Below, piece after piece: positions 44,976-52,703 of a stretch of DNA of 64,000 bases. The DNA is from Hanstruepera ponticola (GTDB lineage Bacteria > Bacteroidota > Bacteroidia > Flavobacteriales > Flavobacteriaceae): the NCBI RefSeq assembly GCF_012931685.1, contig NZ_JABANC010000003.1, positions 248,001 through 312,000 of the forward strand, in the 5' to 3' direction. The first letter of the stretch is position 1, and the number at the start of each line of letters is the position of its first letter. Under the pieces are notes generated by a model. That model was given only the letters and a program-made list of their open reading frames with translations. It had not been told where the DNA came from and did not search any database. The translations under genes were made by a program, and so were the position numbers.

Positions 44976-44977
44976 TT
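44951..44977 (-). terminator. Weak terminator of the leftward QEGLA operon
   Basis: Stem AAAAACC / GGTTTTT with a 13-nt loop; on the minus strand it ends in a T-run just after the stop codon of the QEGLA gene. The stem has only two G-C pairs, so confidence is low. Confidence 0.35.
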
Positions 44978-46136
44978 ATTTTAAACTCTTTAAAATAAAG
45001 TCTAAATTCTTGTTGATATGCTCTTTATTGATATAAGAATCAGTATAATACTTCGAGGTGGATGCCAAGCCTATTTTTTGTAATTTGTTAATGGTATGTA
45101 AATATTCTAAAGACACTTTGCCAGTTAGTAATGGATTTAAGTCTTTTCCCTTTTTAGCATAATTATAAACTTTCTTCAAACCTGACAGATATAAATGATC
45201 TTTTGTAAAGCCACCACCTCTATGCACACGCAAAGTGATTGCAAAGGCTTTGTCGCGATCTAACTTATATTGACTATACAGCAAATCAAAAGTGTCTGAA
45301 AAACTATAGCCTTTTATCAAACTATCTACTGCTATAACACGATATGACAACTCTTTCAATCGTGTTAGTGTCAAACAACCAGACATATATTCAGAATATA
45401 CCGCTAAACCTTCTTGTGTTTCAACATTATTAGGGAATCCATTTGAGAAAATATGTAATGGCTGATTAATCGCATTGAAAGTTGTAACCAAATGCACACC
45501 AATCTCATGATTGGCTAGAACCTGTAACTGGTTTTTACTAAACTTATGATTTTTCCTTAACACTAAAGTTTTAGCATGATTCTGAACCATTGCTGCAGCT
45601 GAAATATTTGTTGAAAATTTAATATGGTATTCAAAATCATAACGTTTTGAAAACTCTTCAAAATAGGCTTTAGCATCTTGAGCATTAAAAAGTGGTAGCA
45701 TATCTTGATCAAAATCACCATCATCAAAGCGCAAAATAAATTTGGCGTTGTCAAGATCTCTCTCTGTTGGTGTTCCAAAACTCTTTAAACTATTGTAATA
45801 AAACTTCCTGCTTTGATTAATAGTTTCAATGCATTCAATAAGCCCTGAGTATTCATAAATAATGTCTTCATATAGATTACGAATATCATTGTCTTCAATA
45901 CGTTCTAATCGCTGTGAAAAGAATAATCTATGAAGTTTATAGCCATTAAATTTTAACTTCGGATAATTAAAATTTGGTTCATAATTAAACTTTGAAGCAT
46001 AAAACTGTTTCTTTTCATTCTCAATATTAAGCGGGTTGATATAATTGAGTAATTCTATTTTTTTTACCAACCGATTAAGGTTAGAGTCTATATCAAATAA
46101 GTCTTGGTATTTATTTATTTGCTTTTCAGAAACCAT
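44976..46136 (-). CDS. QEGLA-motif (DUF1704, MATCAP-family) putative metallopeptidase
   Basis: The 386-residue protein holds H210-E-I-G-V-H215 (HExxxH zinc site) and VETQEGLAVYSEY with E242, the motif that names the family (flavohemoglobin expression-modulating QEGLA protein, TIGR02421/DUF1704). Animal relatives (MATCAP/KIAA0895) are tyrosine carboxypeptidases acting on alpha-tubulin. By analogy this enzyme may remove a C-terminal amino acid from a protein or peptide. It is the last of a leftward string with N-formylglutamate-amidohydrolase-like, sulfurtransferase and GshB-type genes; no base separates it from the amidohydrolase gene. Confidence 0.87.
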   Translation of the reverse strand: MVSEKQINKYQDLFDIDSNLNRLVKKIELLNYINPLNIENEKKQFYASKFNYEPNFNYPKLKFNGYKLHRLFFSQRLERIEDNDIRNLYEDIIYEYSGLIECIETINQSRKFYYNSLKSFGTPTERDLDNAKFILRFDDGDFDQDMLPLFNAQDAKAYFEEFSKRYDFEYHIKFSTNISAAAMVQNHAKTLVLRKNHKFSKNQLQVLANHEIGVHLVTTFNAINQPLHIFSNGFPNNVETQEGLAVYSEYMSGCLTLTRLKELSYRVIAVDSLIKGYSFSDTFDLLYSQYKLDRDKAFAITLRVHRGGGFTKDHLYLSGLKKVYNYAKKGKDLNPLLTGKVSLEYLHTINKLQKIGLASTSKYYTDSYINKEHINKNLDFILKSLK

Positions 46137-46967
46137 TTATTTTGAAAATGTTTTATAGAATTCATGTGCATGTTGTGGTAATTCGCTTTTCAGAGCATCT
46201 TCTACTGCAGTGACAACCTCTGGATAAATAATCTGCTTATACTCATCACAATACACTTTAGCAATTTCAGTTGCCAAAACTAACGTATTTTTAAAAGTAT
46301 TAGTTATATATCTTAAGAAATATCCATTACCATAAAATGTATCGTTAATTTTCGCTGTTGACTCAATACCATTAGGCAAAATTATTTGCTCAAGGCTCTG
46401 CCTCCAAGATTCAATAATGCTTCCAAATCGATTGTTATCTACATTGCTAGTTCCTAAATTCCAAGTGGGTACTTCCCTATCCCAACGTTGCCAATTATAA
46501 CTGTGCATGTCATAAACTATACATACACTGTGCTTTTCTTCAATTTTAGAAATTAAAGCATGAACTACTTTATAAAAATTATTATGCTTGTTTAAACTCC
46601 TTTGTTTCTTATCTAAATCTAAAGGCTTTTTCCACAATTGCTTTCCCCATGCTGTATCAAATACCGCATCTTCTGGGAAACGATTTAAGTCATATTCAAA
46701 TCGAGAATCACAACCAGCTATCACTATTGGGTGCGATTGTATCATGTTTTTTGTTTCAGGGTCTTCTTCATACCATCTTTCGTATTCGGTATGTAAACAA
46801 TTATCCCATAATTCTTTTCGAAACTGATGACCGTCATGAACTGCACCACAAACGTAATGCACATAACTATCAATTTTTATGGTAAAACTATAATCATCTG
46901 AAACTGCATGAAAAGTCTCTTCAGCTTCTATTTTTTTAATTATTTGGTCAACTGACAATTTTATCAT
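46137..46967 (-). CDS. N-formylglutamate amidohydrolase-like protein
   Basis: The 276-residue protein shows the fold's metal and substrate motifs in variant form: CGAVHDGHQFR, AGCDSRFEYDLNR, VCIVYDMHSYNW and NDTFYGNGYFLRYI. Classical members release formate from N-formylglutamate in histidine breakdown. There are no hut genes here, so another N-acyl-amino acid or peptide is more likely. It overlaps the sulfurtransferase gene by 4 bp and abuts the QEGLA gene, pointing to a shared pathway. Confidence 0.84.
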   Translation of the reverse strand: MIKLSVDQIIKKIEAEETFHAVSDDYSFTIKIDSYVHYVCGAVHDGHQFRKELWDNCLHTEYERWYEEDPETKNMIQSHPIVIAGCDSRFEYDLNRFPEDAVFDTAWGKQLWKKPLDLDKKQRSLNKHNNFYKVVHALISKIEEKHSVCIVYDMHSYNWQRWDREVPTWNLGTSNVDNNRFGSIIESWRQSLEQIILPNGIESTAKINDTFYGNGYFLRYITNTFKNTLVLATEIAKVYCDEYKQIIYPEVVTAVEDALKSELPQHAHEFYKTFSK

Positions 46968-48139
46968 GCTGCTTCGTTTATAATGCGTTTTAACCAGTTA
47001 AACACCACATGTTCCACTTGATCAAATTCGCCATCTGCAAAAAATAACACTTTAATATCTACAAACAGTTGATTTAAATCTGATCTTGAATATTCATGGG
47101 TTTCCATACCTTGAATAATTTTTTGGATACATTGATAATCATTATCCGCTTTAAACTCATCATAAACCATTTGGAACGTATTCATATCAACTTTAGATAA
47201 AATAACGTTGCGCTCTTTATTTGTTTCAGACAAATTTGAATTTGCCGCATAAAACAAAATGTAAGCTACTAATTCTTTTTTTGACCAATTTTGAACAGCA
47301 TCCATATCATTATTATTAATTAAACTTCCATATTCAGTCCATGAACCATCATAAACAGACATATTTTTATAACCAGTTAATTCTGCCCCTAGAGCCAACA
47401 CACAAGCCGTAATACCTGAACCACATGAAAAGACCATGGGTTTATCATCTTCTAAAACTTCTTGAAAAATATCACGAATCTCATTTTCAGATTTCAAACG
47501 GCCATTGACTAATAAATTTTGAAACGGTATGTTTTTTGAGTTTGGAATGGTTCCACTACGCAAACCTTCTCGAGGCTCTGGCTCCTGACCCATAAATCTT
47601 GCTTGAGAGCGTGCATCAATAACTTGGTGTGTTCTGTTTTTTACTATTTTCTGAACATCATCAAAAAAACACATACAATCTTGATTTTTTTTAGCTGTGA
47701 AATTTCCAATTGCTCCTTGATATACTTCTTTTTTACTTAATGGATAAAATGCTTCAATCCATGCAGGTAAACCTCCATCTAAAACTGCCACATTTTCAAA
47801 ACCAAAAGATTTAAACAACCACCAAGCTCTTGGGCTTGAATAAATACCCTTATCATCATAAATTACAAGGAAGCTATTATTGTTAATACCTAAATTCCTG
47901 GCTTCGCTTTCAAATTGATCTTGCGTTGGATACGTTGTTGGAAATGATGCAGCTGTATTGCTAAACTTATTCTTTAAATCAAAAAAACGTGCTTTTGGAA
48001 TGCATAAATCATTAGTGCTATTTGTATTTTCGGTAACTTTTGGAATAGATGCGTCGAGTATCACTAAATTGGTAGCATCTTTATTTTTATGTAACCATTC
48101 AACCGAAACAATAGGCTTATGGAATTTTGTAATTACCAT
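46964..48139 (-). CDS. Two-domain rhodanese/mercaptopyruvate sulfurtransferase fused to a TerB-like tail
   Basis: The 391-residue protein begins with an inactive rhodanese repeat (about 8-145). An active one follows (about 160-268), with the catalytic Cys239 in CGSGITAC, the loop type of 3-mercaptopyruvate sulfurtransferases. Residues of about 280-391 form an extra helical domain (WSKKELVAYILFYAANSNL; DIKVLFFADGEFDQVEHVV) that looks TerB-like. I do not know this fusion from characterised proteins. The operon position suggests sulfur handling or regulation for the neighbouring ligase and hydrolases. Confidence 0.82.
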   Translation of the reverse strand: MVITKFHKPIVSVEWLHKNKDATNLVILDASIPKVTENTNSTNDLCIPKARFFDLKNKFSNTAASFPTTYPTQDQFESEARNLGINNNSFLVIYDDKGIYSSPRAWWLFKSFGFENVAVLDGGLPAWIEAFYPLSKKEVYQGAIGNFTAKKNQDCMCFFDDVQKIVKNRTHQVIDARSQARFMGQEPEPREGLRSGTIPNSKNIPFQNLLVNGRLKSENEIRDIFQEVLEDDKPMVFSCGSGITACVLALGAELTGYKNMSVYDGSWTEYGSLINNNDMDAVQNWSKKELVAYILFYAANSNLSETNKERNVILSKVDMNTFQMVYDEFKADNDYQCIQKIIQGMETHEYSRSDLNQLFVDIKVLFFADGEFDQVEHVVFNWLKRIINEAA

Positions 48140-48150
48140 ACTTTAATGGG

Positions 48151-49188
48151 TTAGGCATCTTCAACTGTTTTTCGCAAACGAGAACGTCTGTTAAATGCTT
48201 CAAGATTATCGAGCACTTTACTTTCTAGAAAATCAATAACCTTCTCTTCTACCTTAAATTTATTTTTATATACTTTATTGATATATGTAATTCCACCTGG
48301 TGACATAACATTTACCTCAACCAATTTCCCACCAATGACGTCAATACCAACAAAATACAATCCATCTTTGACCAATTTAGGACCAATTTGTTTACACAAA
48401 GCCTTTTCTGCCTTGGTTAGTGAGTGTTTTTGAACGCTACCTCCAGCTGAAACATTAGAACGATGATCATCGCTTCCAGGCACACGCTTCATAGCACCAA
48501 CTGGCTCGCCATTTAACATTAAGATACGAACATCGCCTTGATCGGCTCCTTCAATGTAGTCTTGAAGAATAACATAGTTTGATGTACCATCTCCACTATT
48601 GATATAAAAATCCAATAGCGAATTAATATTACTCATTGCCGATTTTTCAATTAATATAACACCCGATCCTCCAAATCCATTTAAAGGTTTTAGTATCATT
48701 TTATCGGCTTTAGATTCTTTAATTTGCCTAATAAGATAATTCTTGTTTTTAGAAACATGTGTGTTTGGAATAATGTTGCTATGCGCATCACCAAAAGCAG
48801 CCGTGTATAATTTATTATTGGCCTCACGCATTCCCTGCAATGAATTAATTATAAAAACATCATCTTTGACAGAATCCAAAAAATTCAGCATTAAAGGATC
48901 TAATGGTGGATTTGCTCTAAAAAATATAGCATCAAAACCAGCCAAAGGAAGCATTTCTTCTCGTAAATTGGCTTTATTATAAAATGCTTTTAACGTACTA
49001 GGAACTTTATCCATTCTACCTACAACAGTACAAAACGCATTGGTAACACTATCTCGAATAGTTAGGTTTGCAGGAGAGCATAAAGCGACACCATGTTTTC
49101 TCTTGACACACTCTCTTATTAAAGCTAGACTTGTATCATTTTCAGGATCAATTTGTTCCCAAGGATACATTAAAAAGCAAATATTCAT
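48151..49188 (-). CDS. gshB: GshB-family ATP-grasp ligase
   Basis: The 345-residue protein aligns by eye with prokaryotic glutathione synthetase. Matching segments are RANPPLDPLMLNFLDSV, MILKPLNGFGGSGV (ATP-grasp glycine loop), GDVRILMLNGEPVGAMKRVP, SNVSAGGS, and LVEVNVMSPGGI, where E. coli GshB has INVTSPTCI. No GshA is seen and bshA lies in the window, so true glutathione synthesis is doubtful; a related C-N ligation is as likely. It is followed after 11 bp by the sulfurtransferase gene and preceded by a symporter gene 46 bp upstream. Confidence 0.85.
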   Translation of the reverse strand: MNICFLMYPWEQIDPENDTSLALIRECVKRKHGVALCSPANLTIRDSVTNAFCTVVGRMDKVPSTLKAFYNKANLREEMLPLAGFDAIFFRANPPLDPLMLNFLDSVKDDVFIINSLQGMREANNKLYTAAFGDAHSNIIPNTHVSKNKNYLIRQIKESKADKMILKPLNGFGGSGVILIEKSAMSNINSLLDFYINSGDGTSNYVILQDYIEGADQGDVRILMLNGEPVGAMKRVPGSDDHRSNVSAGGSVQKHSLTKAEKALCKQIGPKLVKDGLYFVGIDVIGGKLVEVNVMSPGGITYINKVYKNKFKVEEKVIDFLESKVLDNLEAFNRRSRLRKTVEDA

Positions 49189-49234: not shown

Positions 49235-50560
49235 TTATTTAACTTTATCATAATTGTCATCCCAGTTTTTTGGTTTTGGCTCATGCAATTTATCCAGTGA
49301 TTTGGCTACTAACATAGAGACTGTCGCATCTCCAGTTACATTCACAACAGTTCTACACATATCCAACGGCCTATCAACAGCAAAAATTAGAGCCAAGCCA
49401 ATAGGTAATAATTCAGCAGGAAATCCAATGGATTCTAAAACAATTACCAACATAACCATTCCCGCACTTGGCACAGCTGCACTACCTATAGACGCTAACA
49501 AGGCTGTTGCAATAATAACCAACTGATTAGTAAAAGTTAAACCTTCGGGCCAAATTACTTGCATAATAAAAACAGCAGCAATACCTTGATACAAGCTGGT
49601 GCCATCCATGTTTACAGTCGCTCCAACTGGTAATACAAAACCAGAAACCTCCTTATCTACTCCAATATGTTCTTCAACACGTTCCATAGTTACTGGTAAC
49701 GTCGCGGCACTAGAACTCGTTGAAAAAGCTAATAATTGTGCAGGTGATATTTTATTTAAAAACCAAAGAGGTGATTTTCCAGTAAATGATTTTATTAAAA
49801 TCAGATAGAAAACAATCATTAGTGCTAAACCTGCAACGACGCACAATGCATAATTCAATAATTTAAGTAAAATTTCAGTATCATCAAAAGCAATAATCAC
49901 ATTTGCCATCAATGCAAAAACCGCATAAGGAGCAAATAGCATTATTAAATCTACCATTTTCATAACTACCTCATTTAAGGAATTGAAAAACTTAACCAAT
50001 GGTTTTGCATCTTTTTCTGGTATCAATAACAAACAAATACCAACAAACAGAGCAAAAAAGATAACCTGAAGCATTTGCGCTTCACCTAAAGCTGTAAAAA
50101 TGTTACTTGGAAATATATCAACTAATGCTTGTAACGGACCTGCATCATGTTGTGCTGATGCCTTTGTTAGTTTATCGGTTACGCCAGCATCATTTTCATA
50201 CTTTAGTTTTATTTTCTCAATGGTATCTTGAGACATACCTGTTCCAGGCTTTAAGGTATTCACAATTGACAATCCTATGACTATTGCAACAAGAGTAGTT
50301 CCTACATAAATCAAGATAGTTCTCAATCCCATAGATTTAATTTTGGAAATATCCTTTAAGTCCGAAATACCTTTGATTAGTGAGGCTAGTATTAATGGTA
50401 CTGCGATAAGCTTTAATAAATTAATGAATATGGTTCCGAAAGGTGCAATCCAATCAGTTACGAATCCTTTACCGCCATCAACCGAATTCATGATAAATCC
50501 AAAGATGACACCTAAAACCATACCTATGATTATTTTCCAGTGTAGTGCTATTTTTTTCAT
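49235..50560 (-). CDS. DAACS-family dicarboxylate/amino acid:cation symporter
   Basis: The 441-residue protein has eight helices plus two re-entrant loops. Family hallmarks are the Ser-rich FSTSSSAATLPVT loop, VLPVGATVNMDGTSLYQ for Na+/substrate binding, and the late motif VDRPLDMCRTVVNVTGD. Members import glutamate, aspartate or C4-dicarboxylates with Na+ or H+. It is the first gene of the leftward string that includes the GshB-type ligase, so it may feed that pathway with glutamate or a related amino acid. Confidence 0.9.
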   Translation of the reverse strand: MKKIALHWKIIIGMVLGVIFGFIMNSVDGGKGFVTDWIAPFGTIFINLLKLIAVPLILASLIKGISDLKDISKIKSMGLRTILIYVGTTLVAIVIGLSIVNTLKPGTGMSQDTIEKIKLKYENDAGVTDKLTKASAQHDAGPLQALVDIFPSNIFTALGEAQMLQVIFFALFVGICLLLIPEKDAKPLVKFFNSLNEVVMKMVDLIMLFAPYAVFALMANVIIAFDDTEILLKLLNYALCVVAGLALMIVFYLILIKSFTGKSPLWFLNKISPAQLLAFSTSSSAATLPVTMERVEEHIGVDKEVSGFVLPVGATVNMDGTSLYQGIAAVFIMQVIWPEGLTFTNQLVIIATALLASIGSAAVPSAGMVMLVIVLESIGFPAELLPIGLALIFAVDRPLDMCRTVVNVTGDATVSMLVAKSLDKLHEPKPKNWDDNYDKVK

Positions 50561-50608
50561 ATAACGTCTGCCAATCTCCTAAAGAGAAATTTTATAATTA
50601 AAATTTTA

Positions 50609-50616
50609 CAAAAATA
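50609..50616 (-). promoter_or_regulatory. Putative -7 box for the symporter operon
   Basis: Minus-strand TATTTTTG fits TAnnTTTG, 48 bp ahead of the ATG at 50560. It could drive the whole string down to 44976. Confidence 0.45.
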
Positions 50617-50740
50617 TTCAGTTGTCAATATAAGTTTTTTTGACCTCGTACAATTAATCAGAAACATAATTTTTTGGATGTTTAATATTATTATGAAATT
50701 TCAGATTAAATGGAATTATATAATTAAAATTTAGAAACAA

Positions 50741-51508
50741 CTATTCCTCATCATAAATATCGTCATGATCATCAATTGCTTCCGTATTGGGATCCCTTCT
50801 AAATACCTCAATTAAATTAAAAACAATAATACAGAAAACCACCCATACAGCACCTGCAATAAATCCGGCGACAATATCTGATGGGTAATGCACTCCTAAA
50901 TAGATTCTGCTAACACCAATACTTAATATCAAAAAAGCAAAAATAATCATACCTGTATATTTCAGGAACCTGTTCATTTTCATTTTATAAAAAAGATAGA
51001 TTACAAACCCATAAAAGGACATAGCAGCCATAGCATGACCACTTGGGTAACTTAAGCTTTCGGCAGTTACCAACTGCTCAATAGTTGGACGTGCTCTGTT
51101 AAAAACACGCTTAAGGACTAGGTTTGACAGCGCAGAAATAATCATAACAATTCCTATTTGCAAAATGTATTTCCATTTTTTTAAAACAACTTTAGAAATG
51201 ATAGCTCCTATAACCGTAACAGCTATATAACCCTCCACATCACCAAGGTCAGTAACAAATTTAAAATAACTGGTAAATGCTGGTGAGCGATAAGATAAAA
51301 CAAAATCAGTCACGGAATTATCAAAGCCCACTAACTCGTCATCAATTAATGTTTCAGTGAATTCTATAAAAAAGTTTATACCAAAAACAATGAACATCAG
51401 TGCCAATAAAACGATAATAAAATAAGGCAATGTCACGTTGTAAACCCGTAATTTATCTCTTAAGGAATCTCTTAATTTTTTGACAAATGTTATTAGAAGT
51501 TCGAACAT
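50741..51508 (-). CDS. PAP2-family membrane phosphatase
   Basis: The 255-residue protein has about six helices and all three phosphatase motifs: KRVFNRARPT, SYPSGHAMA and SRIYLGVHYPSD. Members dephosphorylate phosphatidic acid, undecaprenyl diphosphate or lipid A. Which lipid is used cannot be told. It ends in an acidic tail. The start codon lies only 4 bp from a -7 box, so its mRNA may be leaderless. Confidence 0.9.
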   Translation of the reverse strand: MFELLITFVKKLRDSLRDKLRVYNVTLPYFIIVLLALMFIVFGINFFIEFTETLIDDELVGFDNSVTDFVLSYRSPAFTSYFKFVTDLGDVEGYIAVTVIGAIISKVVLKKWKYILQIGIVMIISALSNLVLKRVFNRARPTIEQLVTAESLSYPSGHAMAAMSFYGFVIYLFYKMKMNRFLKYTGMIIFAFLILSIGVSRIYLGVHYPSDIVAGFIAGAVWVVFCIIVFNLIEVFRRDPNTEAIDDHDDIYDEE

Positions 51509-51512
51509 AAAA

Positions 51513-51520
51513 CAAAACTA
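51513..51520 (-). promoter_or_regulatory. -7 box 4 bp from the PAP2 start codon (possible leaderless mRNA)
   Basis: Minus-strand TAGTTTTG fits TAnnTTTG; the ATG begins at 51508. The spacing is the same as for the box at 42520-42527. Confidence 0.45.
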
Positions 51521-51638
51521 TTTTGAAATCCATGCTAAATTTAATGGCACTTCATAAATTATTTGTGCTCAATCACTGAAAATAAATATGGGAAATGAAA
51601 TTTTAAGCTCTAACTCTGAATAATAACATACTGGTATC

Positions 51639-52703
51639 TCAATAAATTTTATTAATCAGATAAAAGTCCGCTAAAACTAATGCTGCCATTGCTTCAACAA
51701 TAGGCACAGCTCTTGGAACCACACAAGGATCATGACGACCTTTTCCTTGCATTTCAACAATACTACCTGAATTATCCAGTGTGTTTTGCTTTTGAATAAT
51801 AGTGGCAACAGGCTTAAAAGCCACGCGAAAGTAAATATCCATACCATTACTAATACCACCCTGAATGCCACCTGACAAGTTTGTAGTTGTTGTTCCGTCG
51901 TCGTTGAACAAATCATTATGTTCACTACCTTTCATTCTGGCACCACAAAATCCACTACCATATTCAAAACCTTTTACTGCGTTTATTGACAACATGGCCT
52001 TTCCTAATTCAGCGTGTAATTTATCAAAAACAGGTTCACCAAGTCCAATCGGAACATTTTGAAGTACACAGGTTACTGTTCCACCTATGGTATCACCTTC
52101 CTTTCTGATAGCTTTTATTTTTTCAATCATAGCATGAGCTGTCTCTTTATGAGGGCATCGCACTGCATTACTTTCTATATCAGCAAAGTTTAACGATTGA
52201 TAAGGTTTTTCTAAAAAAATATCACCTACAGAAGAGGTGTAAGCATTAATTTTTATTTCTGGAATTATTTGTTTTGCTAATGCTCCAGCAACCACACGAC
52301 ACGCTGTCTCACGAGCCGAACTTCGACCTCCTCCTCTATAATCACGAATTCCATATTTCTTTTCGTAAGTAAAATCGGCATGGCTTGGTCTATAAACATC
52401 TTTTATATGTGAGTAATCTTTTGACTTTTGATTGGTGTTTTTTATTATGAATCCAATGGATGTTCCTGTAGTAGTTCCTTCAAAGATACCAGATAAAAAC
52501 TCAACTGTATCAGGTTCTTTTCGCTGTGTTACTATTTCAGACTGGCCAGGTTTACGTCTATTTAATTCCTGTTGAATAGCTTCTAAATCAACTTTTACAC
52601 CTGAAGGGCAACCATCAATAATCCCTCCAATTGCTTTACCATGTGATTCTCCAAAAGTGGTTAATTTAAAAATGTTACCAAAGCTATTTCCCGCCATATT
52701 CAA
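51639..52703 (-). CDS. aroC: Chorismate synthase
   Basis: The 354-residue protein contains [18 protein letters not shown] near the N-terminus, [17 protein letters not shown] for FMN binding, and [14 protein letters not shown] and [19 protein letters not shown] near the end, all chorismate synthase signatures. It makes chorismate from EPSP with reduced FMN. The frame opens at ATG 52703 ([12 protein letters not shown]); ATG 52697 or the GNSFG start is equally possible. It stands alone, with a -7 box upstream. Confidence 0.95.

Follow-up and report, generated by a model that had tools for sequence, protein, structure and literature searches.

A conserved bacterial gene unit of a GshB-type ATP-grasp ligase, an FGase-like hydrolase and a MATCAP-family peptidase, possibly making and trimming one peptide-like product

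Peptide ligases are reportedly linked with peptidases in gene networks, a general concept attributed to the 2009 work of Iyer et al. on amidoligase and peptidase genes. Human members of the MATCAP family cleave Tyr, Ala, and Glu from C termini and also trim polyglutamate chains (excerpts of PMC10499314), and in bacteria the ATP-grasp ligase RimK and the peptidase RimB work as a pair on a protein tail (excerpts of PMC12239564). Here, we describe a gene cluster that encodes a bacterial member of the MATCAP family (also called DUF1704 or QEGLA) in Hanstruepera ponticola. The cluster lies in a stretch of 64,000 nucleotides (assembly GCF_012931685.1, contig NZ_JABANC010000003.1, positions 248,001 to 312,000), which as a whole is called the window. 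Three of its four genes, encoding a GshB-subfamily ligase, an FGase-like hydrolase, and the MATCAP-family peptidase, are a conserved unit. We tentatively favor the reading that this unit is a three-enzyme module, in which an ATP-grasp ligase would assemble one peptide-like product, likely small and soluble and not glutathione, and two enzymes resembling carboxypeptidases would disassemble it. The four genes, each an open reading frame, are the following.

48151..49188, reverse strand: GshB-subfamily ATP-grasp ligase of the PRK12458 type, first gene of the unit (345 amino acids)
46964..48139, reverse strand: two-domain rhodanese of the 3-mercaptopyruvate sulfurtransferase type with a C-terminal tail of about 110 amino acids, optional (391 amino acids)
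46137..46967, reverse strand: FGase-like metallohydrolase with a predicted N-formylglutamate amidohydrolase/carboxypeptidase fold, core (276 amino acids)
44976..46136, reverse strand: QEGLA/DUF1704/MATCAP-family metallopeptidase with H210-E211-H215 and E242, core (386 amino acids)

An earlier note made from the sequence alone had described four tightly packed leftward genes, and the coordinates and the junctions between them (an 11-bp spacer, a 4-bp overlap, and 0 bp) were all reproduced. The peptidase matched Pfam family MATCAP (PF08014, which we take to be the former DUF1704) with 338.7 bits at a gathering cut-off of 27, while its 307.6 bits missed the cut-off of 338.65 set for TIGR02421, a hypothetical equivalog named for a flavohemoglobin expression-modulating QEGLA protein. 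The intact HExxxH...E site that the note had pointed out was borne out, with H210, E211, H215, and Q241-E242 invariant in alignments of 15 and of 51 sequences, and the nearest named relative of the protein (91%) came from Hanstruepera marina. The ligase contained the Pfam domains GSH-S_N and GSH-S_ATP and scored 458.1 bits against the NCBIfam model PRK12458 (cut-off, 408). It missed the rimK_fam model (92.5 versus 143.4), and its partner peptidase belongs to PF08014, so the two do not form a pair of the RimK/RimB type. The FGase-like protein exceeded the cut-off of Pfam FGase (PF05013; 51.5 versus 28.9 bits), carried the conserved motifs HxG, SRFExDxNR, and DxHSYN, and fell far below the HutG model for N-formylglutamate deformylase (TIGR02017; 18.9 versus 278.75). 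The sulfurtransferase matched the rhodanese Pfam model, and its best NCBIfam model, 3-mercaptopyruvate sulfurtransferase NF008557, was matched with 220.1 bits, under the equivalog cut-off of 250. The TerB-like tail once proposed for this protein fared poorly: the window tail had no Pfam match at an E value of 0.001, and the detached tail gene of another locus (L025) matched at 0.008, under the cut-off. As judged from the sequence itself, none of the four proteins has a hydrophobic N-terminal signal, and a cytosolic location was therefore assumed.

The association of the ligase with the peptidase was nearly complete in a sample of 296 genomes drawn from Bacteroidota. A MATCAP/DUF1704 match was present in 16 of these genomes, and a GshB of subfamily NF009110 scoring at least 396 bits was present in 15 (17 copies; 14 genomes above the curated cut-off of 408), with a gap below these matches down to the next best scores of 215 and 194 bits. 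All 15 ligase-bearing genomes fell among the 16 genomes with DUF1704, an overlap with a hypergeometric chance of 3e-24 if genomes are treated as independent, even though they share ancestry. The ligase adjoined DUF1704 in the window and in 14 of the 15 other Bacteroidota loci that were fetched; in the same 15 loci, FGase adjoined DUF1704 in 12 and a rhodanese was present in 2.

Similar results were obtained with 80 named flavobacterial loci, which were the best 80 of 580 from a scan of a genome collection and thus represent the closest relatives. The ligase, FGase, and DUF1704 genes were neighbors in 71 of them, which argues that the cluster is not due to chance; DUF1704 occurred without the other two in 8, and the remaining locus (L040), which lies at the end of a contig, had FGase with DUF1704. 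The rhodanese was rejected as a core member, since it was found in 24 of the 80 loci, all of them among the 71 with the full trio. Thus, the expected conservation of the cluster in relatives held for ligase, FGase, and DUF1704 and failed for the sulfurtransferase, which is an optional passenger. Among the 41 loci that lack the rhodanese and have gene calls for the whole trio, the ligase and FGase genes overlapped in 32, and neither junction exceeded 5 bp in 25 (-8 and -4 in 18). With junctions this tight or overlapping, most rhodanese-free loci have no space for a precursor-peptide gene between the trio genes, and the tight junctions together with the GshB fold favor a small metabolite as the product.

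In the mechanism that we propose, the GshB-fold ligase would couple the carboxylate of a peptide-like acceptor with an amino acid, as its family suggests. Both hydrolases, as cytosolic metalloenzymes akin to carboxypeptidases, would then work on the ligase product from its C-terminal end: the DUF1704/MATCAP protein would strip terminal residues, and the FGase-like protein would cleave the remaining acyl-amino-acid bond, probably one to an acidic, Glu-like residue. The product would be a small soluble peptide or acyl-peptide, probably a cytosolic metabolite. Gene identities, conservation, fusions, the shared absence of ligase and FGase from some genomes, intact catalytic motifs, and predicted folds are what the analysis shows, whereas the direction of the reaction, the substrates, and the action of both hydrolases on the ligase product are features that we infer.

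Predicted structures place both hydrolases near groups that release C-terminal residues, with the proviso that a shared fold is no proof of function. The DUF1704 model (mean predicted local distance difference test [pLDDT] score, 89.9) matched human MATCAP with a Z score of 24.9 (root mean square deviation, 2.9; 291 aligned; about 20% identity), followed by DUF885-type proteins (Z of 14 to 16) and then M32 carboxypeptidases (Z of 11 to 12), and its standing as a true MATCAP relative is thus supported by sequence and by predicted fold. The FGase model (pLDDT, 94.2) was closest to the N-formylglutamate amidohydrolase 2q7s (Z of 24.6). Next came enzymes of the carboxypeptidase A/B type (Z of about 11 to 12.4) and succinylglutamate desuccinylase (11.3), and then a phage poly-gamma-glutamate hydrolase (10.7) and CCP5 with a Glu-peptide analogue (10.4), in a search in which 204 of 1,000 chains reached a Z of 8. 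Several relatives of FGase release Glu. Judged by its fold, the amidohydrolase would more plausibly be a second hydrolase with a carboxypeptidase fold that acts on this one product than a general recycler of N-acyl amino acids.

The MATCAP and CCP5 parallels also keep a protein tail as an option. In that case, the ligase would add residues to a C terminus or a side-chain tail, DUF1704 would trim the chain, and the FGase-like enzyme would remove the last residue, in parallel with TTLL/TTL, MATCAP/TMCP, and CCP5 on tubulin or RimK/RimB on ribosomal protein S6. Such protein editing is consistent with the action of MATCAP homologues on protein tails (excerpts of PMC10499314), with RimK/RimB as a bacterial precedent (excerpts of PMC12239564), and with the fold that the FGase model shares with the CCP5 deglutamylase, and as no precursor gene fits into most loci, the target could be some general protein of the cell. 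Against it, the loci contained no further conserved partner in searches that used window genes only as queries and would miss a partner absent from the window. Additionally, the best-characterized GshB-type ligases act on small peptides. Overall, protein editing appears unlikely. Its most specific form, a bacterial tail-code system, would have the ligase extend the C terminus of a cellular protein with acidic residues, which the MATCAP-family enzyme would trim back until the FGase, with its CCP5-like fold, took off the last one. Such a system would be a functional counterpart of the tubulin tyrosination and glutamylation machinery, with the peptidase as its evolutionary relative; we regard this form as somewhat less likely still.

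Phyla beyond Bacteroidota were sampled through plasmid records, 127 of which encoded a DUF1704 protein (mostly Rhizobiales, with 9 records from Pseudoalteromonas, 2 from Photobacterium, and 1 from Vibrio). The trio was side by side in seven of the eight inspected rhizobial and Vibrionaceae replicon loci with DUF1704 (L113, L114, L115, L116, L160, L162, and L164), a set outside which the nine Pseudoalteromonas records and the Sinorhizobium meliloti 2011 locus L163 fell. FGase and DUF1704 were joined into single polypeptides in L021 (genome G045), in L112 (Vibrio sp. HDW18), and in L116 and L164 (two Photobacterium replicons), and in the FGase half of L112 the DxHSYN motif reads DMYAYN. A maoP/DUF413 gene lies directly upstream of the L112 fusion and likewise before the ligase in Photobacterium L116. 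A candidate DUF1704-GshB fusion in L030 was rejected, as it was an overlapping open frame with no MATCAP match in that frame. Separately, record OQ572403.1, listed as Pseudomonas phage Y1, had a partial DUF1704 match at 63521-64207 (58% of the query, 31% identity).

The DUF1704 proteins occurred in two sizes. Short proteins of about 390 amino acids accompanied a subtype-A ligase and a subtype-A FGase, and long open frames of about 610 to 690 amino acids paired with ligase subtype B, which is 27 to 32% identical to the window ligase. Clusters of mixed type, in which a single long DUF1704 and a single FGase of subtype A are combined with two dissimilar GshB-like ligases, were found in G103 (L022, 7528-13224) and G118 (L023, 5978-10878). 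At their N terminus, the long proteins carry a domain of about 240 amino acids, which had no Pfam match above the cut-off in the four proteins tested (L022, L026, L031, and L115). When aligned with all FGases, it reached a probability of 94% in HHalign, whereas five control pairings stayed at or below 18.4% and 20 column shuffles at or below 1.2%; with the FGase subtypes taken separately, the values were 82% over 60 columns for subtype A and 34% for subtype B. A direct tblastn match was obtained in G053 and was weak (E value, 2e-4). In the profile alignment the domain lacks the FGase catalytic motifs, and it is probably, to judge from these alignments, a degenerate FGase turned scaffold. The fusions and the FGase-like N-terminal domain make FGase and DUF1704 look like partners in a complex.

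The ligase family also brings up a low-molecular-weight thiol pathway, which would make glutathione or a glutathione-like compound, with the rhodanese handling sulfane sulfur. The window ligase aligned with Escherichia coli GshB (1gsa) at an E value of 5e-37 and scored above the cut-offs of PRK12458 and PRK05246, two models named for glutathione synthase or synthetase, and a rhodanese of the 3-mercaptopyruvate sulfurtransferase type adjoins it in the window. However, the glutamate-cysteine ligase family PF04262 (GshA) was found in none of the 16 DUF1704 genomes, and GCS2 (PF04107) had no match in 9 of the 16 and was present in 7, with E. coli detected as the control in both searches. The ligase also missed the glutathione synthase equivalog TIGR01380 (233.4 versus 299.05 bits). 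In the alignment with E. coli GshB, the ATP-grasp core was kept (e.g., ExNxxSP and R...RxN), while RKDPP and SPTCIREI read RANPP and SPGGITYI in the window ligase, and the rhodanese is missing from most of the named loci (24 of 80 have it). Given the absence of PF04262 from all 16 genomes and of GCS2 from 9, glutathione is unlikely as the product of the operon, which agrees with the reading in the earlier note, and the thiol pathway as a whole is very improbable. The single GCS2 of the window genome sits outside the window (G000:C7:593000-605726; L149: 3777-7139), in one operon with a second FGase paralogue and a RimK-like ATP-grasp ligase that bears an RLAN domain. In at least 13 further genomes of the sample, the coordinates put an ATP-grasp match no more than about 2.5 kb away from one to FGase, and in one of these genomes (L153) a gene for a C39-like peptidase adjoins.

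A hint of physiology comes from Photobacterium damselae, in which the GshB gene A0J47_RS17020 and the QEGLA gene RS17025 were 38-fold and 28-fold upregulated in 1% versus 3% NaCl (excerpts of PMC10308900). From the neighboring locus tags and the Photobacterium replicons L116 and L164, we infer that these genes form the same ligase/peptidase unit. This expression pattern and, by analogy, the osmotic phenotypes of rlo genes (excerpts of PMC12239564) weakly suggest a role in hypo-osmotic adjustment, and osmotic or stress-related turnover of the product is our best physiological guess. Among CC-licensed PMC papers, this transcriptome was the only one found with a bacterial DUF1704/QEGLA protein; MATCAP was otherwise discussed in tubulin biology only. 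The term DUF1704 itself was listed for one paper, on malaria (PMC3245289), and SMb21373 of S. meliloti, possibly one of the genes considered here, is named in a paper in connection with galactosamine use.

Several observations weigh against a module with one shared product. Eight of the 80 named loci retain DUF1704 in genomes that lack both ligase and FGase: whole-genome searches found no FGase homologue in any of the eight (positive genomes were detected in 6 of 6 cases), and for the ligase they found partial ATP-grasp matches at most (27 to 35% identity, E values of 5e-17 or weaker, versus 3e-197 or better in four positive genomes). Thus, the peptidase is useful without the other two enzymes. 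To explain this pattern, four changes are required on a single fast tree with 76 rows (the window and 75 of the 80 loci; L055, L057, L062, L063, and L065 were dropped, as no complete gene was called) and at least two on a careful tree, counted against 27 other labeled rows. The joint loss of ligase and FGase each time could reflect one deletion of adjacent genes. Two Bacteroidota genomes (G053 and G273) have DUF1704 and the ligase with no PF05013 match genome-wide, and another (G186; locus L017, C4:26008-27078) has a DUF1704 of another type (424 amino acids, 28% identity), next to which neither a ligase nor an FGase was found. The Vibrio sp. HDW18 plasmid fusion (L112, 7122-9113) has no adjoining ligase, and an Ensifer replicon region reached through its ligase (L161) has this gene alone among general-stress-type genes, with no DUF1704 nearby. 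A junction exceeded 100 bp in 5 of the 41 rhodanese-free loci, and the window ligase did pass the glutathione-synthase model PRK05246 (277.8 versus 272). FGase-type enzymes are known as N-deformylases, and the label of carboxypeptidase for the FGase-like protein rests on fold similarity. Finally, the salt response comes from one transcriptome of one species (P. damselae, excerpts of PMC10308900). Overall, a conserved, unexplained ligase/peptidase operon is confirmed for three of the genes, and the protein-tail cycle of the earlier note is one candidate reading of it; the notion of a strict cycle is weakened, as the peptidase is kept without ligase and FGase in those eight loci.

The same eight loci speak for a catabolic or salvage system, in which DUF1704 and FGase would break down peptides, whether imported or intracellular, and the ligase would only recapture residues or run on a side substrate, because DUF1704 is kept there beside a symporter gene. 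In the window, this neighbor is the following.

49235..50560, reverse strand: SDF-family symporter (glutamate/dicarboxylate type), 46 bp upstream of the cluster, a noncore neighbor probably through aroC synteny

In 67 of the 80 named loci, a gene for an SDF symporter lies ahead of the cluster and in the same orientation, but such a gene adjoins the trio in only 6 of the 15 sampled Bacteroidota loci. In the window, the symporter, a PAP2 gene, and then aroC occupy 49235-52703, and an SDF-family gene likewise adjoins aroC in 17 of 20 DUF1704-negative genomes of the Flavobacteriaceae, an imperfect control in which a single genus supplies 15 of the 20 genomes and distant homologues (30 to 33% identity) of unsure orthology make up 13 of the 17 symporters. 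The symporter was therefore rejected as a core member, and with it a story of glutamate transport. Additionally, the strict association of ligase and peptidase in 15 of 15 genomes is unexpected for pure catabolism, and we consider this explanation rather doubtful. The module that builds and takes apart one peptide-like product thus remains the reading that we tentatively prefer.

These results show that in Bacteroidota, rhizobia, and Photobacterium, bacterial relatives of MATCAP share a conserved operon with an ATP-grasp ligase. Identification of the product would supply a substrate for a bacterial DUF1704 protein and bear on the origin of the tubulin carboxypeptidases, and it would correct the annotations "glutathione synthase" and "N-formylglutamate amidohydrolase." Among the systems with which the unit can be compared, GshB glutathione synthase shares its sequence family and the ATP-grasp core motifs with the window ligase, whereas many DUF1704 genomes have no GshA partner and the window subfamily is tied to DUF1704 in all 15 Bacteroidota genomes. 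The RLAN-ATP-grasp/GCS2/FGase operon of the same genome similarly has an ATP-grasp ligase next to an FGase paralogue, but its ligase is RimK-like with an RLAN domain, GCS2 is added, and no DUF1704 was seen there. The RimK/RimB and RloC/RloA operons also pair an ATP-grasp ligase with a peptidase, and Rlo has an osmotic link; they differ in their ATP-grasp subfamily and in having an aspartic peptidase instead of PF08014, and excerpts of the source mention no FGase (PMC12239564). The MATCAP/TMCP tubulin carboxypeptidases (KIAA0895L and KIAA0895) belong to the same Pfam family as the window peptidase and have the HExxxH...E site and a similar predicted fold, and the human MATCAP chain and the window protein share the R303/K312-D313/Y316 region. 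In contrast, identity is about 20%, and the window peptidase, known here from genes and models, is encoded in a bacterial operon with a ligase and an FGase. Overall, RimK/RimB and TTL/MATCAP are the known kinds of system to which a build-and-trim module of this sort can be likened.

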